NCBI GenBank assembly: GCA_934045905.1
Contig: OW203769.1
Span: 1,637,546-1,701,545, forward strand
Source of the DNA: Leuctra nigra
Lineage: Eukaryota > Arthropoda > Insecta > Plecoptera > Leuctridae
DNA: 64,000 nucleotides
Direction: 5' to 3'
The notes beneath the pieces are model-generated. The model saw only the letters and a list, made by a program, of their open reading frames with translations. It was not told the DNA's origin and searched no databases. Positions 6,022 through 60,300 of this stretch are shown here, piece after piece. Each line of letters opens with the position of its first letter. Positions within the stretch are counted from its first letter, which is position 1. The translations under genes were made by a program, and so were the position numbers.

Positions 6022-6024
6022 ATG

Positions 6025-13554: not shown

Positions 13555-13832
13555 GGTCCAATGTAAGTTGCAATGACTTTGCTAAATTTCAAATTGATCG
13601 GGCCAACCAATCGAAAGACAAATATCTTATAAAATAAATATAAAATATAAAATGTAATATAATATAATGTAATTTTTTTTTAATATGAACAAATCAGAGG
13701 ATTTCAAAAAATATTAGGGTCTGCAACGCCCAGAGATGGTTCGTAAATGTGTGTAAATTTTCAGCTCGATCAAAGAAAAAATAACAAAAAAACGAGGTCC
13801 GTGTCGAAAGAACCAAAAGGAGTCACTAGCTC
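13555..13832 (-). repeat. H2 family fragment (5' region, inverted)
   Basis: The stretch matches the reverse orientation of the H2 family near 43,210-43,470: gctaaatttcaaattgatcg, then 'ggatttcaaaaaa.attagggtctgcaac', 'tttcagctcgatc' and 'gaggtccgtg'. The GAGCGAGCG end itself is lost, and the 57-bp minisatellite begins where it would be. Confidence 0.6.
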
Positions 13833-14117
13833 AATGACGCTGGTCATCAAGCACGTCTTCACTCCAGGAGATCACCACACCAAGAGAACAATGACGCTGG
13901 TCATCAAGCACGTCTTCACTCCATGAGATCACCACACCAAGAGAACAATGACGCTGGTCATCAAGCACGTCTTCACTCCAGGAGATCACCACACCAAGAG
14001 AACAATGACGCTGGTCATCAAGCACGTCTTCACTCCAGGAGATCACCACACCAAGAGAACAATGACGCTGGTCATCAAGCACGTCTTCACTCCAGGAGAT
14101 CACCACACCAAGAGAAC
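13833..14117. repeat. 57-bp minisatellite, five units
   Basis: Five consecutive, almost identical 57-bp units start with aatgacgctggtcatcaagc. The only obvious variant is 'ccatgag' for 'ccaggag' in one unit. The period is a multiple of three, so short frames are open on both strands; there is no sign of a real gene. Confidence 0.95.
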
Positions 14118-16968: not shown

Positions 16969-18052
16969 ATATTTAAAAAATATATATTTTACTACCATTT
17001 ATGTTTTAAAATGTATACAATTTTTAATATCAATTTCCCACATCTCTGTCGCATTGTTAAATAATATGTAGTTCTAAGTCGTTAAATAATTACTTATCTT
17101 ATTGTGTTCTTCGCCGTCACTTTGGAAAGCACAGAATAATACCCATAAGATGTGCGAAGCATCTGCAACAAGAAATTCTATTTATTAACAAAGATGATTT
17201 CATAATGAAATTGTTGAACATAAAATGTAGTTAAAATAAAAAAAACTTGTTCTCACAAGAGATAGCCTTTTTCATTCGGTAAAGCTAAGTACCTTCGATA
17301 TACTTTACCATTCTCTAAAAAAATTAGATAATTGAGCGAGCGTAGCGAGCGTCACCACGGTACTCTTATGGCTCTTTCTCTGTGTGTTTTTTTTTTTTTT
17401 TTTTTTTTTTGGTCACACCCCAGGTCAAACCGCTTAAACAATCAATCTGAAATTTTGTACACATACTAACGTACTCTATGCGGTCCCTGCGATCGTTTTT
17501 GAACGGGATCCCGTGATTGGTTCAAATTTAAAAAAAATTATCTTTCGATTAGTTTGTTTTATCAATTTGAAATTTTGACAAGTCATTACCACTAACATTT
17601 TACCCAATTATACAAAGATTCAGCCAAATCCTCCCATTGGTTAAAATTTAAAACCATCTTTACTGTGATTTTTGAAATTTAAACTAGAACCGTTTGACCG
17701 ATCAACTTAAAACTTTGCATGGTCATTGGGACCAACATTATCTGTGTTTTTAACAATGTTCAGACAAATCTGTGTTTAAATCCAAAAGTTATTGACATTT
17801 TACGGACATTTTGCGTGTTGGCTGTCAAATTTCTCGAAAATGTTGATCACGGCTACTTCGACTCTTTCTAGTTCCAAGGTAGTTAGAGCAGAAACTTTCA
17901 AACGTATGAAACTGATATGACCGTTCAACATATCGTCTAATATTGTGTAAGTACACACACCTATATCATATGAGTGGTCCCAGGTATATTTTTGTAACCA
18001 TGATTTTTGAATATTGACTAGGAACAGTTTTATTATAAAGGTTCAATTCATT

Positions 18053-18712: not shown

Positions 18713-19130
18713 ATACTTTAGGAATATTTGGAGATTTTTATACCTACAAGTCTAACGAATTTCAAGAATTGTTGGCTTTTAATGATATTTTCGATAGACA
18801 TAATTTCGGTTCGAGGTGTTGCGCGTGTCAGTGCTCGCTCATCAAAGCGTTACACAGAGCGTTTTCCTAGTATAATGCTTACTACACATAAAATTCTTTA
18901 TTATTTCCTTGGGAAATTGCATGTGCTGTTCATCTCTGCTTGTGAATAATCTAAGCACTTAAAACTTACCGCTTGAAAAGTATCTAAGGAGAACGGGACA
19001 TATCCAGCTCTAAAGACAACAGGTTGATTAGCCATCGACATCATGATCCGCATAGACTGCTTGAAGCTTTCGGACGCTTCGAACCAATCACAACCGTAGA
19101 GAGCCTCCCTCACTAGCGAGCTCTGTAACA

Positions 19131-19245
19131 CGGGACAACAGGTTGATTAGCCATCGACATAATGATCCGCATTGATCGCTTGAAGCTCTCCGACGCTTCG
19201 AACCCATTACAACCGTAGACAGCCTCTTTCACAAGCGAGCTTTGT
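19131..19245 (-). pseudogene. partial second copy of OR-A exon 6
   Basis: This segment repeats the beginning of exon 6 just upstream of the real one: SSLVKEAVYGC, then FEASESFKRSMRIIMSMANQ. It then breaks directly into the splice acceptor of the real exon. Its own acceptor is damaged (acaaag in place of acagag) and a conserved DW reads NG. It is a short intragenic tandem duplication that has decayed. Confidence 0.8.
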
Positions 19246-19965
19246 ACGAGACAAAGGAGCTATTACAAAAGGCACCCAACCTCACGAATTACTTAAAATT
19301 TTCTCACCTGCTCTGTCAGCTGGTCGAAGAGGTAGGAGTAGATATAGACAATGAATGTTGCCACGAAAAGGATTCCGAGAACCAGCACAATGATAACATC
19401 AATTGCAGGTGTCTAAGGACATAATAATGTTGAATGTGAGCATGTATTGTTAGAACTAAAGTACAGTGATTGTGATTGGTCACACACATATATCTATCAC
19501 TTTTGTATTCCCTCAACCTAGTAATTTTGGGCATAGAATTATTGTATAGCATAAGATCTATTGAATATCCATCCATATGGTGACATTCATATTATAACAA
19601 ACAAGTCCTTACCATCATAACGTACAAAACTGCCAGAGATGACGACGTCAGATAGAAAATCATTCCTTCAAGATATATAATTTGCAGTTTATTCTCATAC
19701 TCGCTAAATAACCTAAAAAAAAAGATTATCCGTGAAATATATTAACAAAAATAAATGACAGACGGGTGATGAATAACGTTATTCCTACCTAATGAGAGCC
19801 TGGTGATGCTTGATGCAGTCAACCAAGCGAATCTGCATCACCAAGTCCACCTTATGACTATTCTCTTCACCAACTTCGTCCTTGATGTCCAGATTAACCA
19901 AACGTTTTAATTCCTGGCTTCCTTCATCCAAGTCTGAAAGGACATTTGGAGTTAGTTGGGTGTTC

Positions 19966-20460
19966 TCCTCCTTGACTTAACTCCATCACACCTCGCTCAG
20001 CTGGTATTTGACTGTTCTCAGTCTTCTGGCGACGCTTGGCCATGATGTGCTCGAGACTGTCAGCTCCTCCTTGACTTAACTCCATCACACCTCGCTCCGC
20101 TGGTGTTCGACTGTTCTCAGTCTTCTGGCGACGCTTGGCCATGATGTGCTCGAGACTGCCAGCTCCTCCTTGACTTAACTCCATCACACCTCGCTCAGAT
20201 GGTGTTCGACTGTTCTCAGTCTTCTGGCGACGCTTGGCCATGATGTGCTCGACACTGTCAGCTCTTCCTTGACTTAACTCCATCACACCTCGCTCAGCTG
20301 GTGTTCGACTGTTCTCAGTCTTCTGGCGACGCTTGGCCATGATGTGCTCGACACTGTCAGCTCTTCCTTGACTTAACTCCATCACACCTCGCTCAGCTGG
20401 TGTTCGACTGTTCTCAGTCTTCTGGCGACGCTTGACCATGATGTGCTCGAGACTGTCAGC
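19966..20460 (-). repeat. 33-codon tandem repeat in OR-A cytoplasmic loop 2 (five units)
   Basis: Five units of exactly 99 bp encode a 33-residue unit that begins ADSLEHIMAKRRQKTENS and ends RGVMELSQGG. Variants are S/A before ERG, L/V after DS, and R/G at the end. The units follow CQFRVLCDKLLHIR, that is, just after TM4, and precede HHQALIR before TM5, so they lie in the cytoplasmic loop of the inverted 7-TM topology. The frame shifts soon after the fifth unit. Confidence 0.95.
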
Positions 20461-20880
20461 TCGGATATGCAACAGCTTGTCGCACAGAACTCGGAATTGA
20501 CACGTCATGTGGAGAATTATTGTGAAACAAAGAATCTGTACAACGCCTACGAGAAACAGTGCAGTTCCCCAGGACGTTACGTACAGCACCACAGAGATCT
20601 CGCGGTATGGCGATATCTTGGCAAAGTTAGGACAGTAGAACCTGGAATAGTTTTCGGTAAATAGTACTTGTTCTTGATCATTATGTATTGTCAAATAGTT
20701 TTTCTCTTCGTATTATTTTAAAGTAACCACACAACTGAGCAGATAAAAATGTATTACTCACTTTTTCTGGCAAGCAAGTTTGAAAAAGCTTATTAATATA
20801 TTAGTCTAAAAATGCATTCCAATTGTTAGGTCATTGTGGAATTCCAGAAGGAGAAAGCATCCCATTTTGGACCTTACTAC

Positions 20881-21884: not shown

Positions 21885-22372
21885 TAGGAAATATTGCACA
21901 CAAAGTCTTGGAAAAAGCGATTAAAGTATGGAAGTTACTTTCTACATAAAACTTCGTTGATCTTAGTTTCTTCCGAATGTGACTTAATGCGTTCTTCCCC
22001 TGCACCCTTCATATGTATTTGTTACAGATACAACAGCATGGGAAATTCAAACTCACCCAGTTTTAGACATGTCATCACGCATCAAGAAACCGATATTCAG
22101 GAAACAAAAATTAGCCAAACAGATAAAAAATATAGCCCTTATGAGGAAATTCAGCAGGATGTCATTTTTGTTGACAGTTATTTTGACCATCATGATTTGC
22201 CGTGTCCCGTCTGAGCAGTATTTCATGTTGATATCCTCCAGCGATACCAGCAAGTGACGTAGATTTTCAGGATGGACGTACACGTTATATAGATAACAGG
22301 CGCTTTGAATTGATATTAACAGTAAAAATACAACTTAAACTGTTGAAATATGAAATGCGATTGTTTGTCTGT

Positions 22373-24148
22373 CAGTGTTGGACTGGGCCGCCGGGCAACC
22401 GGGCAATGCCCGGTGGGCCGATTCAAAATGGGCCGATCGACCTGTAGAAAAGGACCGGTGTCGACTTCCATAAAGTATCTCTACTTAATTCATAGTCTAG
22501 AATTACAATGTTACGTAGATCACATCCCATTAAGCACACCATCTACTTCAATTGCAAGGTATTCTGATCTTAGAGTATTGTATATACTGTGGCGTGGTGT
22601 GATAATATGATATCGGAACTCGTCTGTCTGGGCCGCTCAAACCTAGGATGATTACTCAAACGGTTCTTCAAGTTCGGGCCGAGCCGCACTGCAATTGACT
22701 GTTTACATTGGCGGCTCAGAAATGCTCTCTCCTTCAGCTCTATCGGCTGTTAACTGGCTGTTTCACTTAACACAAGAATTTTTCTAAAAAAATTATCCAA
22801 TTGTTTTGATTTTTTCTGCTTCCTTAAAGATTGGCTGCGCTCGAAGATTTTTTTTAAAATTAATTCAGACTCTGTAGCAGGACCAGAAAATTCCTAGTGA
22901 CTAGCAAAATCGAAGAAAATTTTTGGTGGGAACGGAAGGAAAATTCACAAATGAATACAATTTAATAATAATACGAACTATTTGATACCAAAACACATAG
23001 AAACTTATTTTGATCATTGCTGTTCTGTTGCTTATTGCACCTTCTTAAAAGGAATTAAAAAATCGATTCATAATCCATTATCTTTACTAGAAATTCAAAC
23101 AATTCCCTGCCAGGGCCTTTGGGGATTTGATAAAATAACAAAATTTGCAGATTATATTGCATGTTGTCTAAAGTTTTCCCAAGAACATTGCATATAACAC
23201 GTTTTTTAATTTCTTTGAAATGGATGCAACATAGCTTCAAAGTCGATTATTTTGTATCAAAGACTCAAAAAATGCCCTGCTGGGCCAATTGGGTTTCTAT
23301 AACACAAATTTCATATTATATCACATTAGTCTAAAGTTTCCCCAAGATTATTGCATAACCCAAATTTAAATTTCTATGAAATTAATGCCAAAATAGCTTC
23401 AAATTCGATTATTTTGGATCAAACACTCAAAAAATTCCCTGCGGGGCCAATTGGGTTCTATAAAACATATGGTTTCAGATTATATCACATGCGTCTAAAG
23501 TTTCCACATGATAATACATATCACAAATTTTGAATTTCTTTGAAATTGATGCCAAAATAGCTTGAAATTCGATTCATTTATATCAAAAACTAAAAAAATG
23601 TCCTGCGGGTTACTACTACCAATTGGGTTACTACTAGGTATAAGACAAATTTCAGATTAGTATCTCATTTGTCTAAAGTTTCCCCACGATAATGCATATC
23701 AACAATTTTAAATTTCTTTGAAATTAATGCCAAAATAGCTTCAAATTCGATTCTTTTGGATCAAAAACTCAAAAACCTAAGACAAATAGTTACAGATTAT
23801 ATCACATTTGTCTAAAGTTTCCACAGGATAATGCATATCACACATTTTAAATTCCTTTGAATAAAATGCCAAAATAGCTTCAAATTCGATTATTTTACAT
23901 CAAAAATTCATAAAAATGCCCTGCGGGGCTACCTGGGTCCCCCTTGTGACGGTGCACTACCTTTTCCTTACATTCATTGATCACCGATAATTTTAACCCC
24001 CACCCAAAAGAAAGTTCCTACGCGCCTGCCGCTGGCTTGCAGCATAGTTTTGCCAAAAAAAGTTCATTCTGAAAATCGGCCGCTTTTTTACCGTGGGCCG
24101 GTTTCTAATCTGTTGCCCGGTAAGAAATTTTACCCCAGTCCGACACTG
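22373..24148. mobile_element. non-autonomous hAT element in exon 2 of OR-A
   Basis: The ends are inverted (CAGTGTTGGACTGGGC at 22,373 and the complement of CAGTGTCGGACTGGGG at 24,148). Identical 8-bp target duplications, TTGTCTGT, lie at 22,365-22,372 and 24,149-24,156. The 8-bp duplication and CAGTG end are diagnostic of the hAT superfamily. The 1,776-bp interior encodes no transposase; from about 23,060 to 23,940 it has about five degenerate copies of a ~165-bp unit (tctaaagttt recurs at 23,166, 23,331, 23,491, 23,670 and 23,810). Confidence 0.9.
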
Positions 24149-24603
24149 TTGTCTGTTCATGTAGAAATACACCCAGCGGTTGAAGAAAGCCTCGAAGCAC
24201 TAATCTGCGACTACGGCACGAGGCAGGTAATATCTCAGACGACTTGCGAAGCTCTCCTTAACCTCGGAGCCGTGTGACGTCATACCTGTGAACAAGATTT
24301 TGTGGTGTTTCGATCTTCATATTCTGACTATTTAGGTACTCATTTAGGAGGGTGTGTTGGGGTGAAGCTATTAGAAACTACTGTGTAAGGAAGATGAGAA
24401 AGACTTTCTATGGTGTTTCATACCTTGTTGGGTGAGCGAATCGTGATTCTCTTCGATCTTTTGGCACGGAGCGATATTTTTTTCTTACTGCTAGTATAAG
24501 TACAATTTGTACCATTTAATCGATCGAGCTGTTATTTTTCACATACCCAAATTATCCGAGTATCCAAAATAGTATAGTTTGTCGCGGTTTTGTTGTTGAA
24601 TAA

Positions 24604-25090: not shown

Positions 25091-25311
25091 TAACCAACCA
25101 CTATTTAACAAACCACGAGGCTATTTAACAAAGCATTTTGAAATTTTGCATGGAGATAAGGCCAACATAATTATCTAATATTTCTAAAAAATTTACAAAA
25201 TCAGTCAAGTAAATACAGTTTGAAATAGCTTTAATTAGGATCTGCGTAGCATCTGGTTGGTCTTTACATGTGTGCAAAATTAAGTGCGGTTGGAGGGACA
25301 GAAAATGTCAA

Positions 25312-27111: not shown

Positions 27112-27494
27112 ATGTCTGGGAGTGAAACATGTTTTACTCACCCAAATAGTCCATGACCTTGACGACTGACGTGCAAATGGCTGTCTCTTGCTCTCTCGGT
27201 CTCTTAGGCAACGACATGGCTATGATGACGACAACGAGGAAGACGGCGCTACGAACAACCCTCAAACCAGCGGAGCTATGATGCAAGGCGAGGACGACAG
27301 GTCGGCCACTTTGGCGCTAGCGTCGAGGGTGTACTTTTCAATTCAAAGTATTTCTTACCCCACAGTCCGTATTTTTATGTTATATTGTAAGAATTAATGT
27401 TGATATTTGGTTATTAACCGCAAGAGTGGATAATGTTTAGAAATGATAGGGCAATAATGATATTTTGATATTTTCAAATATTATAAAATACATT

Positions 27495-33970: not shown

Positions 33971-34983
33971 AATATCTTACAATACAAGATTTTTGAGTTG
34001 AAGGGTCTGAGAGCTATCGTAATTTTCAACTGTTGGCTTTGTATACGCTCTAGAAGGTATTTGTGAGAATGACCCTAAAATAGACTGTTTGTCACAAATG
34101 CCCCCTTTCAGGGCTAACATCACAAAACCAACTAAAGCGTATACCGTAAAGCCACCAGTTAAAGATTATTGACCAAAAAATAATTTAATGTAAATACAAT
34201 TTCAAGCAATTCAATTACAATTTTTATTGTAAATACAATGTAGAGCTAAAACACTGTTAAAGTTACATTCAAGCTAACTAATTTACAGCATCATGTGCAG
34301 GTATCTACTAGGAACGAAACAATGATCAACGATATCAATTAAATCAATGACAAAGTAACTGAATCCATTCTGCAGTGTAAACCTGTCATGTCAAGTGGCG
34401 GAACTTGAAAACTTTCTCGGTGTCGAAATGGCCAATAAGAAACTTTCTAAAACAGTGAACATGAGGCGCTGCGCAGCGCTCCTGAAATGCTGTAGTGGTG
34501 GGAATTTAGTGAACTATTCGTTACGTATATAATCTTACTAAGTTAAGTAAATATTTGTATAATAAGTATACCTATCGTTCATATTTATAAATAAACATAT
34601 ACATGTGTAAATACATATATTTTTTATTTACGTATTTAATGCGTTTACAATACGGATAACGTATCGACTGAGCCACTGACTGGTCACTACACTGGCATGT
34701 GGAACATAGCGCGTCAGTCTTATGACCCCGTGACACACACTAACGGTTTAAACGGTCCTAAAATATGAACTTGTTTGGTGTTTTCAATGACAATCCCAAT
34801 AAAGTGTCGATCCTCTCCTGCAGACAATCCCACTTCGTCTGTGACGCTTCTCAATGCTTTTAGTCTTCAGTTCGGCTTGATGAGTGACGTCAGCAAAGTG
34901 TAGTAGCTGTATGACGTCTCCAACAGCTGAGAACAAACATCCACTGATTTCCACGACACATTAGGGATGACAATCGTCATCTC
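33971..34983. other. intergenic, no gene recognised
   Basis: AT-rich sequence downstream of the identified part of OR-B. It contains no reading frame with a pattern I recognise. The unplaced last exon of OR-B could lie in this direction. Confidence 0.35.
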
Positions 34984-35661: not shown

Positions 35662-35910
35662 TGGAGTATAGTTGCAACATTCATTGCTTTCCATGAACCA
35701 GATTCAAACGACAACTATGAGTATAAAACGCTCCACTCCGTTTCCAGCACTTACTTTCTGAAATGTTACTAATTTGACGGGCACAAATCCTGCTGCCATT
35801 ACTACTAACGGTTGATTAGCTATCGACATCATGATCCGCATTGATCTCTTGAAGCTTTCCGATGATTCGTACCAATCACAACAGTAGACAGCCTCCCTCA
35901 CTAGCGAGCT

Positions 35911-35945: not shown

Positions 35946-37955
35946 ATCTACATAAAAGTGCAATAATGCTTAGAGATCAAATCTGAAGGGACTCTGTAAT
36001 TTATATCCTCAAATTTTATAGTTGAAATGACAGCCATTTTGGATGACAGTGTTAATAAGAATTATCGACTTGACGTTACAATTAGCAATTAAAACACAGT
36101 ATAAGAATGTACATCATTGTTCAGAAACAATTTGTTGACGTTGATTCATCCGCTTCTGCTCATTCATCTTAAGCCTTGTGATTTAATTGCTAATTGTAAC
36201 GCCAAGGCGATTACCTCCTCTGCCAGCTGGTCAGCAAGCCATGCGTTCAATCCAACAAATACGGAAGCCATGAAGATCATTACCAGGATTATAATCGTAA
36301 GTGAGTCGACTAACGGAACCTGAAATCAATCAATCAATCTATCACTAATTAATACCAATTGTATTTCAATACAATAGTTGTTTTTCTTTGTACTAATGTA
36401 CCAATTACAGCCAATTAATTAATTTTAATTTGTACAAATTAATTTTAGTTTATAATCAATCTCAGTGATTGTTATTACGTCTATCTTTTTATTTATAGTT
36501 TCTAATCTTTAAGATTTTCCAGACAAGTGAAGATTTCAATAGTACTACATATATATGTATGAGGGGGAAAGGCTTACTGAAGTTGTATAAACCACGGCGA
36601 TGCAAGAGGCGGTATTCCGCTTATGAATACTGGTTGATATATTCTGACAAAGTCACTGACTAGGCTGAAACAGCATGGGAAAACAGTTGAGAAAGAGCAG
36701 GGAATGTGGTAAGGACATTATGGTGTTGTGGTACGGTAGAACCACCATAACCTCAGTGTTTCCGATTTACTTGAAATTTTGGTGACTTATTGATAATCAT
36801 GCAAAAGTCATTCCATGAAAAATTTAAACACTTCTCTGTCCAGTTTCTGAGATAAATTGATTTGTCTCCCCATGTTATCTTATGGCGGAAAAAGAAAATC
36901 GTGTCATTTTTAGGTTATAATGAAAATCAATTTTTTGTGTGGATAGATTTGAACGTATTGTTTTTTTATGGTAGACATCATGAACATACTGTCAGGGAAA
37001 AAACTGAAAACAATACCAACGTGCGCCATTTCAAAAGTTAATAAACCAAATTCGAAATTATTTTTCTATACCTCCCACGTAAGTTTTGTTCGTTCTCAAA
37101 ATACATAAAATTGAAAACTCATTATTGAACTGGAGTTGCAAACTACATGACATTAAATGAATCTGCTAATCTTAAATATACTTGAAAAGAAAATGTTTTT
37201 TAAACTTGTAATTTCAAGAAATAATATTTTGTAAAATTAATCGACCATAAATATTGCAAAGGGAGTATAAATAATTTAGACCTACTATAGTGATGCGTTA
37301 ATATTATTCTTCCCACCTGAGCCGTTAGAACTATCCTCGACCATTGAGATGAAACCTGATGACAATTTATGTAAGAGTTCACAATTTAATAATAATAATC
37401 TGTTTAAAAATAATTTTATGACAGTAATCCACCCCTGGAACCTTAAGATTCCTTCCTGGAGGCCAGTTTTTGAGCTTTCAAGTTTTGAAACCGTTTTACG
37501 TTTGCATTGCATACAACTTTAAAAAGTAAAAGTCTAAGGCCTAGTTGTAAACATTTTCAGGTTTTATACAATGAAGCCCTTAGAATTGAACCTTTTCAAG
37601 TTTTATACAATGCAAACGTAAAGGGGTTGGAAAGCGTGAATCTCAAGAATTAAGCACCCTCCATGTGGAATTCGCCACCTGTTAAAAACCACTGTAGAAT
37701 AACCGACCTGATGAGTGCCTGATGATGCTGGATACAGTCCATCTGGCGCCTGCGCATCTCCACTCCAAGCTCAATCCGCTTCTTCTCAGCAACTTTCTTC
37801 CTTATGACACGCGCGACAAACTCATTTGTTTTCGGTATATTTTCATCTACGTCTGTCGGAACTTTGAGAATAGAATGTGTTACATTCATCATAAGTGTTC
37901 GACATCCCACTTTCTTCTTGCCTAAGTAGGAGGTGACTTTCTCTTGATTGTCAGC

Positions 37956-38351
37956 TCCTCCTTGACTTAACTCCATCACACCTCGCTCAGCTGGTGTTCG
38001 ACTGTTCTCAGTCTTCTGGCGACGCTTGGCCATGATGTACTCGAGACTGTCAGCTCCTCCTTGACTTAACTCCATCACACCTCGCTCAGCTGGTGTTCGA
38101 CTGTTCTCAGTCTTCTGGCGACGCTTGGCCATGATGTGCTCGAGACTGTCAGCTCCTCCTTGACTTAACTCCATCACACCTCGCTCAGATGGTGTTCGAC
38201 TGTTCTCAGTCTTCTGGCGACGCTTGGCCTTGATGTGCTCGAGACTGTCAGCTCTTCCTTGACTTAACTCCATCACACCTCGCTCAGATGGTGTTCGACT
38301 GTTCTCAGTCTTCTGGCGACGCTTGGCCATGATGTGCTCGAGACTGTCAGC
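37956..38351 (-). repeat. 33-codon tandem repeat in OR-B cytoplasmic loop 2 (four units)
   Basis: Four units of 99 bp encode the same 33-residue unit as in OR-A (ADSLEHIMAKRRQK...ELSQGG), followed by a diverged start of a fifth (ADNQEKV). The frame is open throughout exon 3. Differences between units are single codons (M/K, H/Y, S/A). Confidence 0.95.
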
Positions 38352-39426
38352 TCGGATATTTAACAACTTGTCGCACAGAACTCGGAATTGACAGGTAAGT
38401 TGCATGTAAAATATGAACGTTATTATATGCAACGTAAATAATAGCAACATATTTACCACCCATGCGACTAAGACAACTGTCCCTGAAATTTCACGGGTTG
38501 GTGATTTTGACGTATCATAAGGAAAGTAGAACCTGAAAAATAATGTCATCTTATGATCTTATTAATGGCATTTAAAGTTAATTAAGTATGTTATTGCATT
38601 TGATTGATTGTTTTTGTCACTACCGAGCGAAATGTGTAGGTGTTATTAGAGAGCCTAGTTATATTTTCTATATTTAATATACCTACCAGGTATGAGATTG
38701 TTAACCTAATGATGTTTAATTTCTTACCCCAGTTTATCCATAGACATGATCCAGGGGAGCAGAATCAAAAATGAAATTAACACAAATGCGAACATTGCTC
38801 GTACAACGTGTTTTGCGAAGAAGTCGGTTAGTCTCGTAGTTCTTTGTATCATCAAGAGAGAGCGGTAATGTTGCGAGGAGTATCTACAGATGATGTGTTC
38901 AAGCGACAACATCAAGCCACGAATATTCTCGGGATCCCAGTAAATTGTACACAGGTGGATTGCAAAGGCAGTCACACATATCTCATAGAATATGAGTCTT
39001 GGTAGCTCTTGAAGTGTAATCGTCTTCCAGTAGACGAAGAAGTAAACCCAGCGGATGAAGAAAGCTTCCAGGAAACTTTCAATAACGAAGATGCGGAATA
39101 GGAAAAACTTCAACGTATGTTTCCAGTTCTTGTTGGCGACTGCAGAATACGCGTACATTCCTGTGAACCAATACCAGCTGCTCGAATTCGTCAAGTTAAT
39201 TGAGAGTTGTACACGTACACCTTTTACTCCAGCCAATAGCGACAAGGTACTGCCTTCGATTTAGGGAAATAGGTAAGTGTACAACAGATAATCGAATGAC
39301 AATAGAGCTGCAGAATGCAACGTTATCACTGACATAATTGATTGTAAGTTAAATTGTATCGGTTATTTTAATTTGCTTCCAACGTGCGTCAAAATACTCG
39401 AACATCATAACTCGTCATTTACAATA

Positions 39427-44302: not shown

Positions 44303-44318
44303 TTGAATTTGAGTGACA

Positions 44319-45530
44319 ATGAAACGTAGCAAGATAAATGTGGAGGTGCCACGTTTACAGGAGCTATCATCAGCTATACGGCACCTCCACTACATCTCCC
44401 GTCTCATTGGTCTCGCGCCATTCTCCCAGGACTTCGTGTCCAACAAGATGGCGGCTGCTTATACCTTGATGCTCGCTGCCGGCTCGCTCACCGTAGCGAT
44501 CTCCTCGGTACAGAATTATCTGGAACAATCCAAGGGGAAATCTCTGGTCCTTTACGCCTCCAGAATCTTAGCAACAGTAACGTCATCACTTGCAATTATC
44601 ACGTCACTTTTGTGTTCGCTTTACTTGCTGCCGAAGTTGAAGGATATTTTAAGTAATTTGGATCGAGTGAACAAGGAACTGGAAGGAAGTGGAACTTTGA
44701 CGAAGATCACCCGAGGTATTATAATAGAGTTGTCAACTGTAAGCGTGTTGTTAGCAGTCGCATTTATTATGGAAGTAGCCATGTGGGGTCAGTTCTCACT
44801 TATCAGCGTCGTGAATTACTTGTCAATTATTTGCATTTACCTCACTGTCATTCAGTTCGTCAGCTTCGTGCTTTTCCTAAAGCTTCTCTTCGCATCAATG
44901 AACCACCATCTTGAATTACTCTCAACTGAACAAGATGGCCGCAGCTTCACAATCATCAAGTTCGATGACGAATCATTGACAACGGATTGGAAGAGTTTTG
45001 TCAGGAATCTGAGCAGGATTTATCAAGATCTTCATCTGGCGTCTCGCTACATCAATTCAGCTTACGGATATCAAATTCTAACGATACTTCTCTCTTTGGT
45101 GTTCAGCATCATTTCTCTAAGCAACAAAATCATCTTTGAATTGAAGATTATTCTAGAACACAATAATTTCGACGGCGTACAATACGAAGGAAAAGAGGTA
45201 TATTTATCTAGTCTAGGTCTCAAAACCACTTTATTTGATTGCTACTGGCTGTTCCTAAACGTATTCATGACAGTGGTTTTAGCCGGGGCATGTCACGTGA
45301 CCTGTGAAGAGGCCAATACGACGTCATTGTTAGCTCAACAATGTATTCTGATTGATGACGTAAGTGTGGGCGTGAAGAAGGAGCTGAAGGAGTTTGTGGA
45401 CCAAATGCATCGTTATCCCGTGATCTTCAGCGCTGCTGACGTCATACAGTTGGACTTGACGTTATTGCTGAGTGTTGTTGCCACGGTGGCGAGCTACACG
45501 ATTATCCTGCTTGGGCTTTACCCGGTGTGA
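44319..45530 (+). CDS. gustatory receptor family protein (7tm_7), single exon
   Basis: The 403-residue protein reads from ATG at 44,319 without an intron. It has about seven hydrophobic segments (roughly residues 47-67, 82-104, 139-158, 163-194, 251-273, 304-330 and 378-402). The N terminus has the short GLAPF motif common before TM1. The C-terminal half has the Gr pattern TTLFDCYW in TM6, then FSAADVIQLDLTLLLSVVAT and SYTIILLGLY, a variant of the family's TYhhhhhQF signature. Length is typical for insect gustatory receptors, which are ligand-gated cation channels of taste neurons with a cytoplasmic N terminus. It lies between OR-B and OR-C on the opposite strand. The ligand cannot be inferred. 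Lack of introns could reflect retroposition, but no poly-A tail or target duplication was seen. Confidence 0.85.
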   Translation: MKRSKINVEVPRLQELSSAIRHLHYISRLIGLAPFSQDFVSNKMAAAYTLMLAAGSLTVAISSVQNYLEQSKGKSLVLYASRILATVTSSLAIITSLLCSLYLLPKLKDILSNLDRVNKELEGSGTLTKITRGIIIELSTVSVLLAVAFIMEVAMWGQFSLISVVNYLSIICIYLTVIQFVSFVLFLKLLFASMNHHLELLSTEQDGRSFTIIKFDDESLTTDWKSFVRNLSRIYQDLHLASRYINSAYGYQILTILLSLVFSIISLSNKIIFELKIILEHNNFDGVQYEGKEVYLSSLGLKTTLFDCYWLFLNVFMTVVLAGACHVTCEEANTTSLLAQQCILIDDVSVGVKKELKEFVDQMHRYPVIFSAADVIQLDLTLLLSVVATVASYTIILLGLYPV

Positions 45531-45587: not shown

Positions 45588-45742
45588 TGTCGAAGCGTAT
45601 TTTTTACTTTTTTTGTTTATTTCTATTACAATCGGTCTAAAATCAAAATTTTTACTTCCCGAATTTTTCATCGATGAAATTATACAGTGGGGATTGTGGC
45701 CAGACAATAAATAAAGTTATTAAAAAATACCCTTCGACACTT
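45588..45742. mobile_element. small MITE-like inverted repeat
   Basis: gtgtcgaagcgtatttttta and taaaaaatacccttcgacac are imperfect inverted complements about 150 bp apart. Confidence 0.45.
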
Positions 45743-47451
45743 TCTTCGCCTATTCATAACGAAGATAATGATACCACATGCAAATAAGTAGGGTGATAAT
45801 TAAGGGACTAATTGCAATCCCATTGAAAGAGTCATATTCCATAGAAAAATTAGGAAATTAACATTTGTAATGTGAAAAAGATCACATGAGTTGTAATAAT
45901 CACTTTTAAAATGAGAAAAAAACGTTCTTACAACTTGGGGTGCAGTAGTTTGGCCAATGTCGTGTTTTATATTTAATGTCACGGGGTATCACTCAGAGGA
46001 TAACACAATATTATCCTCTTCAGGTATAATGATTTGTGATTATGACATAAAGAGCGAGGTTCGCGCGTTATGTCTCATATTTATCGGAATGTCATACCTG
46101 AACAACCAATCCATCCAACGATGTTTGCAAGCCAAGGGACGATGATGATTGTAGATCCTCATGTCTCCGACTTAGGCATTGTTTTCGATAGCAGCGTGTA
46201 ATACCCGTAGTTTGACTTCATCAACTACCAAACGATAACGAAACATTCAAGAACATTAGTACCTACTGATATATAGTAATGATAAGTATGCTTGGGGAAG
46301 TAGCAAGTATACAGTGGACAGTAGACACTACATCATTAATAGCCAAGGAGCCAAATACATGTGAAGTCTTTAACTTTCTAGCTAGACACATTTGTTTCTT
46401 ATTCGAAGGAAGAATGATGATTGGACTTGGAATGTTGTGCAGTTAGAGGATGTATTGCAGTGTGAACGGGTTCAAGGAATTGCTAAGGGATAATTGTTGA
46501 TGTTTTTTCTTTGAGATATAGAATTAAAGAGTAGAGGGGAAGAACGTTATAAGTCACATTCGGATAAAACTGAGATAAACAAAGATTCATGTTGAAACTT
46601 GTATTGATTTTCCATGCAGATCGATATTTCAATTGCTTTTTTCAAGACTGTGGCAATATTTTCCAAAAACCGAGGGAATATTCTAAAAGCTGATAAAATA
46701 CCACTTCAATAACACCCTAAACTATTTTTTTTAATGGACTTAGAGCGTTCAGCCCATGTACTACACCCTACAATTGGTTGTATCATGTGTGGTAAATGTG
46801 ATTGTTTTCATTACCACACACAATGTAATATTTAGCGATATATAAATACATAATAAATAACAGTGTCAACTATAGAAATTTAGTTTGTTAGTGGGATTAA
46901 CGTAGATATTTGTATCAATGATTCAAATGAATATAAATGTTGAATGTTCATAGAAACGCAGAGAAATGTAATGTTGTAATTATTGTTATTAAACCTTTAG
47001 GTACTACATTAACAAACTGTATATAATTAGATGAAATTGAGAAGAAGAAAAGGAATGAATATCATTAATTCTGAAACCGAAAATAAAAATATCTGCTTGT
47101 AAAATACGCCATGTGAGAATAACTTATATAATTCGTATTAATCATCATCATCATCATCATCTTCATCATCAATATCATCATCATTTTGTACTTTTACTGC
47201 TTTCATTCTAATTCATAGCGTTTTCTATAATTTATAATAATTCTAGCATTAATCATATTTCTTATATTTACAATTTACAATAATGTTATACTGTGTCCTT
47301 GAGGCATGCATTTTATAATGGCAGTGTTTTAAATAAAGTTCTCTCTCAAATGTTTGAAATTTAATGCACTTAAATGCCGGTTTCTAATGCTAATAGTTAC
47401 ACTATTTAAATATATAAATTAATTTTAATACATTCAAACACATATAAATTG
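45743..47451. other. intergenic region downstream of the gustatory receptor
   Basis: AT-rich with no recognised gene. It contains an ATC-repeat microsatellite at 47,143-47,186 (catcatcatcatcatcat, then diverged units). Confidence 0.4.
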
Positions 47452-47488
47452 AACTCTTCGTTACGTTTGGACATCTTTTATTTTTATT

Positions 47489-47613
47489 AATACAATATTT
47501 CGGTTATTACTTCAATAACCTTCATCAGGTAAAGTAAAAATTGATAAAAAACCTTTTTATTTTTTTACTTTACCTGATGAAGGTTATTGAAGTAATAAAC
47601 GAAATATTGTATT
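47489..47613. mobile_element. snapback palindrome, 125 bp
   Basis: aatacaatatttcggttatt, then 'acttcaataaccttcatcaggtaaagtaaaaa', returns as its complement on the right side with one or two mismatches around an AT-rich loop. It directly precedes H2 copy 5. Confidence 0.85.
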
Positions 47614-47615
47614 AA

Positions 47616-49692
47616 TTGAGCGAGCGAAGCGAGCGACTCCATTTGGCTCTTTTAGCACGGACCTCTGTTTTTTTTTTTGTTTTTTTTTTTGTTTTTGTTT
47701 TTGTATGCTAAAGGAAGCAATAGAAGTCGCACCGTTTCACCGATCGACCTGAAATTTTGCACACATGTAAAGACAACCTTCTCTGTTTGCAGACCCAATT
47801 TTTTTTTGAAATCCATCCATTGGTTCATTGTTAAAATAAGTATCTCCTGATAGCCTAAAAAATGAAAATGGTCTTCGAGAAATGTGATCAAACTCATATT
47901 TAGCATGGTAAGTAAGACCAACAAAGTCACTTATTTTACAAATTTTCAGCCGAATCTGTCAAGAAAGTATGCACTTATTGAAATTTTTAATAGTTGTCAG
48001 AAATGAAACATTGAAAATGAATGTCTTTCCAATGCAACTGAATCTGATTTGCTTTAGGTACAAGAGTGTTTTGATGGTATGTACACTTTTTTAGTGAAAA
48101 GCAGATATTTTTATGTTTATTGAGTTGATCAAATTTGAATAATTCAATTTGGATCATAGTTTCCAACAAATCATTTCGAGTTTTTAAGGACCTTGATTGT
48201 CTTTTCTTCAATTCGTAGTTCTGATGGCCGTGCCTCCCGTGTTTCTACTTGGCTGATTTTGCATCCAGGAGGGATTAGAAACATAAGCTCACATTTCAAT
48301 AATATCATTGAGTGGCGTTTGTTCCCTTCTAGCGTTCACACGTCATTCCAAATCTCTCCTGCATTTTGCTTCTTTTCGTTGATAATTTTGGCAATTTGGT
48401 GTACTTTGTGAAGGTATTAGTAAAATTGAATCGCTTTTAAAGCATAGATATTAGGTATCTACAGTTTTTGTCCAGGGGATTGATTATTTCAAATTATTTT
48501 CTTCTTGGAAACGTTGGATTTATTCCGTTTCTGAGCTTCTGTCTAGCCTGACATTTCCTTGAAGGTTGCTATTTTTTTTTGAAAGTTTTGATTCATTCAG
48601 TTCAAAACATTACGTTGTCTTATTTTAATTGTGGAACGTTGGATTCATTCCGTTTCTAAACTAGGTAGTTACTATTTTACCTGATCCGTTTTTTTGTGTG
48701 GAACTTGATTCCTTTCGCTATTTAGTTGAAAGGTGTTTACTTTATTTTCATATTTGCGAAGTTTTGTTCAAGATTCATTTCGTAACATTACGACATTGAA
48801 TACATTACGTCTTTGAGCACACATTTCGTGCATTTCAAACATTGATCACACAAATATTATTGTACTTTAATTAGGTAGGTACTCTACTTCTTACTTTTTC
48901 ATTACCTATCTTATCCCTATTTAAACATGCCGAAAAATGGAAAGACTTCTGCTAGAATGAAAGCCATAAAGGCGAAAAAGCGTCTGCGTGAAATTGAAGA
49001 TCAAGAAACTGACGAAGCTAAATCTAAAAGGTTGAAACAAAATGTCGTTAATAATAAAGCATCAAGGAGCAAAGAGACCCCCGACCAGACTGCTGCAAGG
49101 AGATACTCAAACAATCAACGCAATACCCGCTCTCGTGCAGCGGGTATTGCCGATTGACCGACCAACTAAAAACTTCGCATGGTAATTGGTAGCAACATTT
49201 AAGGTATTTTTGCCAATTTTCAGTCTTATCTGTCGTTATTTTCAAAAGTTTTTGTAATTCTAGCGACATTTTGTGTGTTGGCTGTCAAATTCACGGCGAC
49301 TTCGAATCTTCAGTTCAAGGCAGGGTAGTTAGAGCAGAAAGTTTCAAACGAAATGAAACTAATAATGACCGTTTAACAGATTGGTCTGATATTGTGTACA
49401 CAGTAATATCATATCATATGAGTGGTCCCATTTATATTGTTTGAAGGATATCATGTGATTTTTGAAACTTAACAAGGAACCGTTCAATCAAAGGTTTAAT
49501 CGAACAGCTTAAAACTTAGCAAGGTTATTGGGACCAATATTTTTGGAAATTTTGGAGATATTTATACAAGTCTGTGACGAAATTCAAGAATTATTGGCTT
49601 TTAATGACATTTTCGATAGACATAATTTCGGTTCGAGGTGTTGCGTGTATCCGTGCTCGCTCATCAACGCGTTACTCAGAGCGTTTTCCTAG
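47616..49692 (+). mobile_element. H2 copy 5, long form (2.08 kb)
   Basis: It begins ttgagcgagcgaagcgagcg and ends with tcaacgcgttactcagagcg and ttttcctag at 49,692. It includes a 76-codon frame (48,927-49,157). It is nearly identical along its length to copy 6; differences are scattered single bases and one- or two-base indels. Confidence 0.75.
48927..49157 (+). CDS. 76-residue basic protein frame in H2 copy 5
   Basis: The frame starts MPKNGKTSARMKAIKAKKRL and ends QTAARRYSNNQRNTRSRAAG plus three residues. It is rich in Lys, Arg, Asn and Thr, with ETPDQTAARR resembling the ETPEQ.A.R. repeats in the N-terminal part of many Helitron replicase proteins. That resemblance is from memory of the pattern. 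It may be the first coding exon of an ancestral replicase, kept while the rest was lost. It has no Rep or helicase domain. Confidence 0.45.
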   Translation: MPKNGKTSARMKAIKAKKRLREIEDQETDEAKSKRLKQNVVNNKASRSKETPDQTAARRYSNNQRNTRSRAAGIAD

Positions 49693-49740
49693 TAAAAATA
49701 AAAGAACTTGTGAAATGTCCAAACGTAACGAAGAGTTTAA

Positions 49741-54384: not shown

Positions 54385-57300
54385 AACTCGATATGTCTCC
54401 AAAGATAAGGGCACGAAACCTGCCACCTTGATTATAAAAGGTTGATTAGCCATCGACATCATGATCCGCATCGATCGCTTGAAGCTATCCGATGCTTCGT
54501 ACCAATCACAACCGTAGACAGCATCTCTCACAAGCGAGCTCTGTAACACGGGACAATCGGACTGTTACAAATGGCGCCGAACGTAAAAATGTGTTACGTC
54601 TTACTTACGTCCTCCGTTAGCTGCTCCAGCAGCCAGGCATACATGGCAAGGAACATCGTTGCCACACAAATCATTGCCATTATTACATATTGGACTGAAT
54701 TGATATATTTAACCTGAAATGAATGTGTGTACCATTATTATTCAAATCATCTGCGTCTATGGGACAACATGTTGTTTGAACAACTGGCACTACGTGATGT
54801 TCTAATATTGACACAAGGAAAGCGACTTTATTTCAGGTTATCCATCAGTAACCGGTGTTCGGTGTAAAAAATCATTCAGTCTCAGTAGAACTGGAAAGTA
54901 ATGAATATTTTGTGAAAAAGATAAGCCATAAGTTTTAAATAGTGACACACGGTTAGATAACGATCAGGACAGTTGAGTAGGTATAATGCATAACTTTCTT
55001 TACCATCCAAATATTTATGCGTAGGTTATTTGTAAAATATTAATTTCTAGAGGCAAATTAGGATTAAAAAATTTATTGGCATACGTTTCGAAAGTTAATA
55101 ATTGATAGTACTTATCGTCGTTTTACTGGGCTTATAAAATGCATATAATATTTAGGACACAAACCTACACTTCAAAAAACAAATATAATATGAAACTATA
55201 TTTTCTTAAATGAAACAGACGTAAACAGTGGTGGGAAACTATCATCCCAGTAACCTATAAAGGGATAAACTATCTCCTCACATTTATTTCTCTATATTTC
55301 TCATATTTTATTTTCTGTCTGAATAAGGTGTTATTTTTGAGAATATTCCACTAGGCTTACCATGGACAGTGAGGTGACCTCCGAGCATGTTGCAATCATG
55401 TACAAAACAATTCCACTCACGCACAGAGGATGCAGCACACGAAGTAGATCGCCACATAACCTGTATGCAATGCAAAATGCAGCTCATTAAAACAATCTTT
55501 ATTGAAGCGACAGAAATTGGCATATTTGAAACGAATATGAATTGTTGCAAGACCTCGAGACAGTGAAGAATATTTTGTTTTGAGAGAAGAGTGTGGAAAA
55601 GAAATTATGTATGAGAAAGAGGTTTGTAGTAAACAAGAAGTAAAGCAACTCTAAGTAATGTTCAATGGCATGGTGCATCGTGATCTTATAATTGTAATGT
55701 TATATATAAATTATTAAAAAGAATGAATCTTTATGGTTAATTCTTGTCAGATTCCCCTACCCTGCAACACCGTTATTTAAAACCAATCAAGTTTCAGCAA
55801 CGAACAAATAATTACCTATAAACTCTCCATGGTATTGATAACTTCGAGAACTCGTTACAAGTAATTATTCTCCCTACCTGATGAGTTCTTGGTGATGCTG
55901 GATGCAGTCAGCCAGGCGCTTCTGCATCACCAAGTCCAGCTCGCGCTGCATCACTTCGTCTTCTGCGGCTCGCAATTTAGAGATAAGTTTTGGGACGACG
56001 TTGATTACCCAAGTCTTTCCGTATAGTTTCGATACTAGTTGAGCTCCTTGGTCCAACTCCATCACAGCTCGCTTATTGGGCGATGTATTCTCTACAGCTT
56101 GAACAATGTTCTCCACCTCCTTGCGTTTATCAACTCTCTCCTTGATGGCTTCGCTTACAGCCTCCTTTAATCCGTGAATAGCTTCATACATCTTGAAAGA
56201 GACAATAGAAGGATTTGCTCCTCCTTGGTCATTCTCCATAACAGCTGGTGTTCGACTGTTCACTCTCTTCTGGCGAAACTTTCTGACGACTTTCTTGAGC
56301 CTGTCAGCTTCACTGTTGTTCGACTCAATCACACTTTGCTTACTGTTCTCGCTCTCCTGGTGACGCTTGGCCACTGTCCACTCTACGCTTACAGGTCTTC
56401 CTTGATCTAAGTCGATTATACCTAGCTCATTTGTCGATGTATGCTCAACTGTCTTAACTCTAACCTTCTTGCAACCTTTATGAATGTAAACTCTCTCCTT
56501 GACGGCTACGCTTACAACCTCCCTTAATTCATGTATTGCTCCATTCATTTCGGACAGGACAAATGAAGTGGAATGACCTCGCCGTTGGTCATACTCCATG
56601 ACAGCTGGTGTGCGAATGCACTTGGTCTTCTGGCGACGCTTGGCCATGATGTGCTCGAGACTGTCAGCTCGGATATTCAACAACTTGTCGCACAGAACTC
56701 GGAATTGGCACGATATTTGGATAATGATTATGAACATGACTATATGTACAGTCCCAAACAATAGTACTATTAACACCCATATGGTCATAACGCTAGCAAC
56801 GGATATGTGCTTAAATGAAGAACTCGAGGTGTCGAATGGATAGTAGAACCTGCGAAACATTAGGGATTTTTATTTTACGCACATTGATGCAAACTTTGCA
56901 TGTAATAAAACCATTGACATCCGCTCTTTATGGGATTCGTGACTGCTATAGCTGCAGCACTGAATGCTTTCGCCGATATCTGAGGCCGCACTGCAAGACA
57001 AGATTCTGGCAATATAAAAACATATTATTAATTTTGTTCAATGCTACGTCATGCCTTCATATTTATAACATACAGCAAAATTAAGCATATTGCTGTGCTG
57101 CGTCAGCTTTCCCTGCAATCTTGGCCTATGTAAGACGATCTCAGCCGGACGAGTGAAGAATTTGACCTTGGTCTGTACGTGAGAACGGGGCGGTTTCGTT
57201 TGTCACTAGACATCGACGACAGATGACTGGCCAGTCGCATGTCCTCAACCCCAGTGTACGTCAATGATGAACCAAAAAGTAGTTGATCGGCATGCCGAAA

Positions 57301-60300
57301 CAAAAATAAACAAAAATAGTCATGTCAACAATATATTAATATTAATATAATATCAATATTGATACCTACATACATAATGTATGTAGGAATCAATAATGTT
57401 GAAGTCTTCTGATTACAATGCAAACCAAACCCCTAAAACGCATGAACCAATTAATACTTTCCTAGACTTATAATTCTTGTTTCTTCTTGCTAATTTCTAC
57501 TGAGTAGAAGTGGACGCTTCAAATTTCTATTGCAAACATAAACTTTAATTATATCGGATTATCTCGGTAGCTCATTTAATTATTCTTCCATATTCACAAT
57601 TCCGCTATCACAAAGTACCTGACCTAATTCGTAATCACATTTTAAATCAAGAAGAAGGTATTAAATAATAAAACCATTCGCTTCTGTTCTATATATTACC
57701 TATTCTTCGAAGTACATTATCTTAGATTGATCTATACTGAGTACTAATAATAATTTTTACATTTAATAATGAATACTAAGGAATCTCACAATCATTAGGA
57801 GAAATAATGCGCGAATAATAAAAACAATACTATTTTAAGGTCTAAAGTAGGTAATAAAATATGTTACCACTATCTTACCCTTCTTTATCCAGTTCAATTA
57901 ACCATGGTAATACGAGGCAATATGTTGAGATCAGTGTTGAATATAAAGCTGGTATCATGTCCGTTATAGCAGACATTCTCCGTACAATCCCGTAACATTT
58001 TTCACTGTCAGTCGCGTATGTTGTCACAATATTATCAAGCGACTTCATCAAATCCCGAATCTTCTCTGGATCTGTGTACACGATGCTAAGATGTATTGAG
58101 AAACATGACGCAGCAAGCTCGTAGAAGACGATCCGAAGGAGTTCTTGGAACGTCAGCAGGTTCCAGTTGATGAAGATGTAAACCCAGCGGTTGAACAGCG
58201 CCTCAAAACACATCTCTGTGACGAGGATCCGAGGCAGAAGGAACTGCACGAGGTTCAGCTTACTCTTCTTCACGGCGTCACTGTAAGCGCGCATTCCTGG
58301 TGGAGGAATAAGTGTTTTAGACTTCTACTCATTCTATAGATAGCTTACACGAACTTTTTTTGTTTTATATCAGCAATGCAAAATATTGAATTTTCCACCT
58401 GAGAACGGACATTTTGTTGGCACGTTAACGGGTCAGATTTATAACTTTATTGAGGTAAATCGATGTATTTTGTGTAATGTGAGTGATTCCTCTTCGTACT
58501 AATATCTGTACAAATATGGAGATAATATCTGTATCTCCGGAGCCTATACAATTTCCCAGGTACCCAACAACTATAAAATATCGTCAAAAAAGCAGATATA
58601 CACAGATATTCTGCGTGCCATCAAGATGTGGCAGGCTACAATGAGATGACATCATGTGCAAACTATGATTGTGTCTTTTTTAACCGAGGCAGGTCAGTCT
58701 TAGGACCGGTTGTAAATGTCCAGATTAGTAAAATAAAAGGTATGTTCGCCTGTCACCTCTTTTCTGGAGTTTTGGAATAACTGGGGTAGCTTTCATCGAC
58801 CTCAAAGCGGCGTATGACACCTGAATCACAGGAAGCTGTTGAAGAAGGTGTACGACCTGACGAAGGATCACCAGTTAACACAGCTCATCAGCATTCAGCA
58901 CCTTCCTGCATAACAGAAGGTTCTATGTTTGTCTACAAGGGAAGAACAGCAGATGGTGGACCCATAAGAATGGCCTACCCCATGGAAGCGTTTTGGCCCC
59001 AGCTCTCTTCAACATCTACACAAACGATCAGCCATTGCCGAACCACACCAGGAAGTTTATCTATGCGGATGACACTGCGGTGGCCGCACAGGGCTCAAGT
59101 TTTGCGGAAGTTGAAGAGAAACTGACGCAGACGTTGGACGAGCTCTTTTTATATTACGACACAAACTACCTCCGGACGAATCCCAGCAAGACGCAGGTCT
59201 GTGCGTTTCACTTAAACAACAGGGAAGCGAGAAGAGAGCTGGACGTCACGTGGCGAGGCGACCAACTCCAACATTGCCCGACGCCGAAATACCTTGGTGT
59301 CACGTGGGATCGTACTCTGACATTCAGGAAACATTGTGCTAACACCGGAGGTAAGGTATGTGCTCGAAATAACATCATTAGGAAGCTGACGAGCAAGTCC
59401 TGGGGCGCCAACCCCCGGACACATAGAACCTCTGCCCTGGCACTGTGCTTGTCTGCCTCGGAGTACGCCGCACCAGTGTGGAGCCAACCTCCGGACACTT
59501 AGAAACTCTGCCCTGGCACTGTGCTTGGCTGCCTCGGAGTACGCCGCACCAGTGTGGAGCCAACCCCCGGACACTTAGAACCTCTGCCCTGGCACTGTGC
59601 TTGTCTGCCTCGGAGTACGCCGCACCAGTGTGGAGCCAACCCCCGGACACTTAGAACCTCTGCCCTGGCACTGTGCTGGTCTGCCTCGGAGTACGCCGCA
59701 CCAGTGTGGAGCCAACCCCCGGACACTTAGAACCTCTGCCCTGGCACTGTGCTTGTCTGCCTCGGAGTACGCCGCACCAGTGTGGAGCCAACCCCCGGAC
59801 ACTTAGAACCTCTGCCCTGGCACTGTGCATGTCTGCCTCGGAGTACGCCGCACCAGTGTGGAGCCAACCCCCGGACACTTAGAACCTCTGCCCTGGCACT
59901 GTGCTGGTCTGCCTCGGAGTACGCCGCACCAGTGTGGAGCCAACCCCCGGACACTTAGAACCTCTGCCCTGGCACTGTGCATGTCTGCCTCGGAGTACGC
60001 CGCACCAGTGTGGAGCCAACCCCCGGACACTTAGAACCTCTGCCCTGGCACTGTGCATGTCTGCCTCGGAGTACGCCGCACCAGTGTGGAGCCAACCCCC
60101 GGACACTTAGAACCTCTGCCCTGGCACTGTGCTGGTCTGCCTCGGAGTACGCCGCACCAGTGTGGAGCGCCTCTGCACACGTTAGTCAGGTGGATGTCGC
60201 TGTCAACGAAACCGTGCGGATTGTGACGGGATGTCTGAAGCCGACTCCCGTTCATAAACTGTATCCGATCATCGGGATAGCTCCACCTCATGTCCGACGG

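Follow-up and report, generated by a model that had tools for sequence, protein, structure and literature searches.

How an odorant receptor comes to carry a tandem repeat in one of its loops, and whether such a loop is used, are the questions raised by a stretch of DNA from the plecopteran Leuctra nigra (assembly GCA_934045905.1, contig OW203769.1, positions 1,637,546 to 1,701,545 of the forward strand). This stretch, 64,000 nucleotides long, is called the window below, and all coordinates refer to it. Three related genes of the insect odorant receptor family, which we call OR-A, OR-B, and OR-C, lie on its minus strand. An initial annotation pointed to a 33-residue repeat in the loop joining transmembrane helices 4 and 5 (TM4 and TM5) of OR-B and interpreted it as a working cytoplasmic module. 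Our analysis leads to a different view. We consider it likely, if only just, that an in-frame minisatellite expanded in the loop between TM4 and TM5 in a small clade of tandemly arranged odorant receptors and was homogenized by recombination between the paralogs, and that the loop is translated in OR-C.

The array and its homogenization

A tandem-repeat search of the window found a 99-bp repeat at 37949-38353 (4.1 copies, 98% matches), and repeat finding, open reading frames, tblastn, and unit comparison together define four units of 99 bp, or 33 residues, at 37956..38351 on the minus strand. The array lies in frame within an open reading frame on the minus strand, 302 codons long, with CQFRVLCDKLL before the array and HHQALIR after it. 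In register, from 38351 to 37956, the units read ADSLEHIMAKRRQKTENSRTP(A/S)ERGVMELSQG(G/R), with two more single changes. They differ by 0 to 2 bases from a consensus of nine units (those of OR-B and OR-A) and by 1 to 3 bases from each other, so that the "four exact 99-bp units in frame" of the initial annotation were correct in count and frame and not in exactness. In the consensus, only the coding frame is free of stop codons; each of the other five frames has a stop in every unit. The repeats thus behave as a coding minisatellite, running head to tail (99 bp by 4.1 in OR-B and by 5.0 in OR-A) and open in the coding frame only.

The array of OR-B follows TM4 and precedes TM5, within the exon that joins the two, just where it had been placed before. 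Insect odorant receptors have their N terminus inside and their C terminus outside the cell, according to PMC8878081, and with this topology the TM4-TM5 loop is cytosolic. In OR-B, 206 residues separate CDKLL from DCIQHH, and in OR-C, 255 residues do so. Unlike these loops with their 33-residue repeats, the loop of insect tuning odorant receptors (PF02949; AaOR10 and OR28, for example) occupies about 25 to 30 positions of the Pfam 7tm_6 model, a figure we estimated from where each of two alignments ends.

The repeat also extends beyond what had been annotated. OR-A carries five more units at 19966..20460 (repeat finding and tblastn), with a change of frame just downstream, and OR-C contains an older, diverged version of the array, with degenerate units from about 56668 to 56044. 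The number of units is therefore four, five, or several degenerate ones across the three paralogs, in agreement with the length variability proposed initially. The tblastn search with the unit found the weaker copies of OR-C at 56668, 56389, and 56308. A hidden Markov model (HMM) of the unit recognized five stretches in OR-C exon 2, scoring 42.6, 1.2, 12.3, 19.6, and 9.6 bits (whole-sequence E value of 1.5e-28); four of them fall below an E value of 1e-3, and the 1.2-bit stretch fails. As a whole, the OR-C loop consists of two diverged halves, in which 47 of 112 aligned residues are identical. A blastn search of the window (word size 7, E value of 1) detected unit copies in the three receptor loops and none outside the receptor genes. 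A possible extra unit after the OR-B array (ADNQEKVTSYLGKKK...) was rejected, as the HMM scores are negative for the downstream segments of both OR-A and OR-B.

When the three genes were aligned at the DNA level, the left flank and the array proved to be a homogenized tract. The left flank of the OR-B array (38352..38393, minus strand; CQFRVLCDKLLNIR) is nearly identical in all three genes. Identity among OR-A, OR-B, and OR-C is 0.37 to 0.67 in the first five 30-base bins, which cover the end of the intron and then TM4, and rises to 0.83 to 1.00 for all three pairs in the next three bins, which start at the codons for CQFRVL. Beyond these bins, OR-A and OR-B remain 0.97 identical, and OR-C drops to 0.53 to 0.63. 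By the method of Nei and Gojobori (NG86), the number of synonymous substitutions per site (dS) is 1.1 to 3.2 for all pairs in exon 1 (for OR-A, its 3' part only), in that part of exon 2 encoding TM4, and in exon 4. The tract is thus a sharp local identity between otherwise diverged paralogs, the pattern looked for in gene conversion. The arrays of OR-A and OR-B differ from each other by a mean of 2.85 per 99 bases, compared with 3.6 within OR-A and 2.17 within OR-B, and hence show no net divergence; two unit variants, 64G>T and 97G>A, are common to both arrays. Downstream of the array, exon 2 aligns poorly among the paralogs (6 to 8% identical residues), and these three rows were excluded. From these data we infer that gene conversion is the simplest account of the likeness of the arrays and their left flanks.

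Condition of the three receptor genes

Assignment of these genes to the insect odorant receptor family, made in the initial annotation, is supported. OR-C without its last exon scores 92.8 bits against 7tm_6 (PF02949; E value of 2.7e-26, cutoff of 25.8 bits), and exons 4, 5, and the last exon together score 62 bits for OR-B and 59.7 bits for OR-A against the same cutoff. OR-B exon 2 alone reaches 13.9 bits, below the cutoff, and no 7tm_6 match was found in OR-B exon 1 or in OR-A exon 2 up to the array. The coding frame is intact in OR-C and broken in both OR-B (at exon 3) and OR-A.

OR-C encodes 604 residues from ATG to stop over six exons with GT-AG junctions. Exon 1 (57879..58294) has an ATG near its start, and an N-terminal exon upstream is possible. 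Exon 2 (55878..56849) is a single open frame of 324 codons that includes TM4, the 255-residue loop with its degenerate units, and the start of TM5. Exon 3 (55361..55460; 100 bp), exon 4 (54609..54713), and exon 5 (54385..54540) follow, and the last exon (46159..46224; LMKSNYGYYTLLSKTMPKSET and the stop) lies about 8 kb past exon 5. It was recognized in a search of 45600-54384 through its similarity to the last exons of OR-A and OR-B (E value of 6.2e-6). Hydrophobicity exceeds 1.2 in eight 19-residue windows, two of which overlap, giving seven segments, and none of these falls in the loop (maximum of 0.86). Exon 5 bears a conserved tyrosine, Tyr540, whose counterpart in the alignment with the AaOR10 chain is position 315; according to PMC11235583, Tyr315 is the receptor position with the highest conservation score. 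The loop is free of stops over 245 codons, which has a chance of 3.6e-7 in random sequence of the same composition, a rough null. No lesion was seen across the six exons. OR-C looks like a complete gene, and it is the one to study.

OR-B has an ATG near the start of exon 1 (38728..39158; TM1 to TM3), with the possibility of a further exon upstream. Exon 2 (37708..38532) carries TM4, the array, and the start of TM5, followed by exon 4 (36215..36319; TM6), exon 5 (35755..35910; TM7 region), and the last exon (34867..34926; LLETSYSYYTLLTSLIKPN and the stop). All five of these exons have open frames, and each junction observed shows GT or AG. The break is in exon 3 (36578..36664), which holds the remainder of TM5. 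It was found in the intron between exons 2 and 4 with a two-sequence HMM (E value of 0.00085), the match covering the first half of the exon only, and its donor, GTAAGCC, is that of OR-C exon 3. This exon is 87 bp long versus 100 bp in OR-A and OR-C. With exon 3 included, exon 4 is read in the wrong frame, in which only three residues precede a stop; with exon 3 skipped, a stop is met as well. On a generic matrix, the donor of exon 2, GTCGGT, reaches 6.0 bits, a value like those of the other donors (4.2 to 10.9 bits for the 14 modeled exon donors), and thus is not itself a lesion. OR-B therefore looks like a recent pseudogene, and its copy of the array is probably nonfunctional. The shortened exon and the frame break downstream of it had been missed, and they leave the proposed functional role of the module in OR-B unsupported.

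OR-A is, by its sequence, a dead gene, with two stops and a hAT-like insertion. Its exon 1 (22057..24283) contains a stop, an insertion at 22365..24156 composed of a 1776-bp element and two 8-bp copies of the target site (ACAGACAA), and a second in-frame stop after the element. The element has inverted ends and internal tandem repeats of 139 to 164 bp; from its end sequence and the length of the duplication, we take it to be a member of the hAT group. Exon 2 (19789..20641) contains the array and the frame change after it, exon 3 (19613..19712) is 100 bp long, and exon 4 lies at 19308..19412. Exon 5 (18973..19241) has a partial tandem duplication (19241-19134 and 19122-18973; period of 119 bp, 1.9 copies), and the last exon is at 17094..17162.

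Form, splicing, and possible use of the loop

The 33-residue unit contains 6 Lys and Arg, 5 Asp and Glu, and 5 Ser and Thr residues and has a net charge of about +1. The description "basic, Ser/Thr-rich" therefore applies to the charge of the 13-residue stretch that had been quoted for it and does not apply to the unit as a whole. A motif scan of the nine OR-A and OR-B units found a protein kinase A (PKA)-type site in none of them, a protein kinase C (PKC)-type site in two of four OR-B and one of five OR-A units, and a Thr-Pro with casein kinase 2 (CK2)-type context in eight of nine, including all four of OR-B; short kinase-type motifs of this kind commonly arise by chance. AlphaFold2, run on the OR-B array and the 23 preceding residues as a single sequence, produced helices of about 30 residues that break at S-R-T in all four units (mean predicted local distance difference test [pLDDT] score of 77.5). 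At each helix restart, T-P-x-E resembles a helix-capping box. For OR-C exon 2, modeled with three aligned rows, the TM4 helix was drawn to residue 76, but confidence is high (block means of 75 to 90) no further than about residue 60, at the start of the first unit; the model as a whole has a mean pLDDT of 45.2 and a predicted template modeling (pTM) score of 0.19. With low confidence, the models suggest a chain of helices, broken once per unit, that extends TM4.

The array, its open frame, its presence in three paralogs, the jump in identity, the lesions of OR-A and OR-B, and the complete-looking OR-C gene are demonstrated by our results, and the module is accordingly real. As to how it arose, the minisatellite would have been built from the segment following TM4 and expanded in the second cytoplasmic loop, either before the three genes separated or in one of them with subsequent spread by conversion. 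Recombination between paralogs would then keep the array and its left flank alike, and unequal exchange would set the copy number. OR-B and OR-A would be copies in decay, their arrays now free to drift. In OR-C, the loop would be translated, and the receptor would tolerate it as a long continuation of the TM4 helix in the cytosol, with helices restarting at each T-P-x-E. This loop might serve as a spacer or tether close to the TM5-TM7 anchor domain, at the contact between receptor and Orco, with no part in odor binding.

Several observations weigh against this reading. The nine units of OR-A and OR-B show 10 distinct changes, 9 nonsynonymous and 1 synonymous. About 2.3 synonymous changes would be expected without selection (P = 0.29), so these units show no sign of constraint, which fits decaying genes. 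Between the two halves of the OR-C loop, the number of nonsynonymous substitutions per site (dN) is 0.48 and dS is 0.79, a difference that is not significant (Fisher P = 0.077, from rounded counts). Compared with the consensus over 17 to 30 codons each, the four OR-C units have dN and dS values of 0.16 and 0.32, 0.31 and 0.24, 0.36 and 1.28, and 0.42 and 0.73, such that dN exceeds dS in one of the four (0.31 and 0.24). The fold of the OR-C loop is predicted mostly below a pLDDT of 50, and the model of the OR-B array has a pTM of only 0.23. The OR-C last exon, 8 kb away, was assigned by similarity only. Exon 5 is also more alike among the paralogs (DNA identity of 0.78 to 0.79, dS of 0.58 to 1.01), so that it too may have undergone sequence exchange or may be constrained, and constraint on the nucleotide sequence stands as a formal alternative to conversion for the tract. 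Finally, phase-matched pairs of splice-like sites occur in all three loops, and the loop may not be fully translated.

These splice-like sites raise the possibility that the array is partly or wholly spliced out, or that its length is chosen by splicing, the mature loop being short or selectable. Every unit of OR-A and OR-B has a donor-like site, GAG/GTGTGA, that scores 6.9 bits, within the range of the modeled donors, and sequences resembling acceptors are present downstream of the arrays. Joining unit 1 of OR-A to TGTCCTTTCAG, past the end of its array, leaves the frame open and would also explain the frame change there. In OR-B, all three acceptors tested (37922, 37862, and 37853) match in phase and leave the frame open from any of the four donors. 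The lone donor above 6 bits in OR-C (AAG/GTTAGA) and its lone pyrimidine-rich acceptor match in phase with an open frame as well. However, each phase match within a single open frame is expected by chance one time in three, GTGTGA falls short of a strong donor, OR-A is dead for unrelated reasons, a further OR-B acceptor outside the three tested (37916) is out of phase by reading, and use of the OR-C pair would take out no more than the middle of the loop. Such splicing, whether it removes the array or chooses its length, is rather unlikely. A neutral minisatellite, expanded in receptor genes free of selection and unused in every copy including OR-C, would fit the lesions of both OR-A and OR-B, the nonsynonymous nature of 9 of the 10 unit changes, and the other tandem arrays outside receptor genes in the window (75 bp by 24.1 and 76 bp by 10.0, for example). 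It fits less well with an array open in the coding frame only, with an OR-C loop open over 245 codons despite its diverged repeats, and with six OR-C exons in which no lesion was seen; we regard it as unlikely, but as the most serious competitor.

An error of assembly, in which arrays were copied or collapsed or base errors mimic the exon 3 break, seems improbable. Nearly identical arrays 17.5 kb apart in OR-A and OR-B are a likely site of misassembly, but each has its own copy number and private variants, and the lesions of OR-A are several and of different kinds, among them an insertion with a clean target-site duplication. Least probable of all is the initial interpretation, by which the OR-B array is a basic, phosphorylated module at work in changing gating or trafficking. 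PKC-type sites in two of four and CK2-type sites in all four OR-B units would suit it, whereas the assembled OR-B cannot connect TM6 and TM7 in frame to TM1 to TM5, the units lack a PKA-type site, and their net charge is only about +1. A more elaborate idea, which we put forward as speculation with little expectation that it will hold, is that TM4 is extended by 33-residue helices, variable in number between paralogs, homogenized by conversion, and perhaps set per transcript through the donor in each unit, forming a length-adjustable tether on the receptor-Orco channel.

If the OR-C protein is made as encoded, as the translated-minisatellite reading would have it, a tuning receptor tolerates a loop 8 to 10 times the estimated length of the family model with its core intact. 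The long loop would then sit where Orco is regulated, the genes would offer natural length variants for probing the role of the loop, and they would provide an example of paralog recombination acting on one receptor loop. If OR-C is silent or spliced too, the locus would be a clear case of a minisatellite spreading harmlessly through a receptor cluster.

Relatives and other features of the window

By family, these genes are insect odorant receptors, and in its evolution, the repeat looks like a coding minisatellite under concerted evolution. As in the tuning receptors named above, the family match is strongest over TM5 to TM7, and seven hydrophobic segments and the conserved tyrosine of the anchor region are present. 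The second intracellular loop of Orco, which corresponds in position to the one described here, is enlarged. It bears a calmodulin site that affects trafficking and sensitivity, according to PMC5043534 and PMC7881240. Unlike the repeat array in these tuning-receptor-like genes, the Orco loop is one conserved single sequence, and no similarity was found between the two loops: Orco chains match OR-C at residues 441 to 582 only, downstream of the loop. Drosophila glue proteins contain repeats of this general kind. Coding minisatellites under concerted evolution, of which the glue genes (PMC10835880) are an example, share with the present array in-frame repeats, copy-number change, and homogenization between paralogs; the present array differs in that it belongs to an ion-channel subunit with seven helices, in one of its loops, and not to a secreted protein. 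No odorant-receptor loop built from repeats is described in the titles and beginnings of abstracts listed for the open-license literature, a scope outside which most subscription papers lie, and the available text of PMC8878081 does not contain the words "tandem," "repeat," or "motif."

A tblastn search of the window with 14 receptor exon pieces returned OR-A, OR-B, OR-C, and the exon at 46224, and no further receptor copies. The opposite strand carries, in the interval from OR-B to the OR-C last exon, an intronless gustatory-receptor-like frame of 405 codons (44313-45530, plus strand; Pfam 7tm_7, E value of 4.1e-31). This frame served as a control in a search of a large protein set, in which OR-C had no match at an E value of 1 among 7997 candidates scored; the control was also unmatched (7996 candidates), making the set uninformative on insects. 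OR-C exon 2 gave 31 pattern matches in genome contigs, none of them confirmed, OR-B exon 2 had no match in viral contigs, and the OR-B array had none among solved structures at an E value of 1.

Other repeats are present in the window. About 1 kb upstream of OR-A, a 75-bp repeat (25309-27116; 24.1 copies, 98% matching) is open through most or all of its length on the plus strand in one frame of 647 codons and on the minus strand in two, of 617 and 602 codons. Translation of this array, whole in the three plus frames and at both ends in the minus frames, revealed by eye no join to a receptor exon, and a stretch of its unit (ALEDSRERIKMAKRMK) faintly like the receptor unit was missed by tblastn and blastn with the unit at an E value of 1 and taken as chance. 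Six-frame translation of a 48/72-bp array (5061-5401) and a 57-bp array (13832-14117) likewise gave no receptor-exon join by eye, and both were rejected as receptor loops. A 373-codon frame at 4909-6030 (minus strand) has a 24/48/72-bp repeat (VAVPSEDD, VAVPSLSH) and lies near a 788-codon frame at 2000-4366 that is reverse-transcriptase-like by eye. A 76-bp repeat of 10 copies (59407-60168), whose period is not a multiple of three, overlaps reverse-transcriptase-like frames, also by eye. The 48/72-bp and 76-bp arrays thus lie in or beside frames that resemble, by eye, the reverse transcriptases of retroelements.
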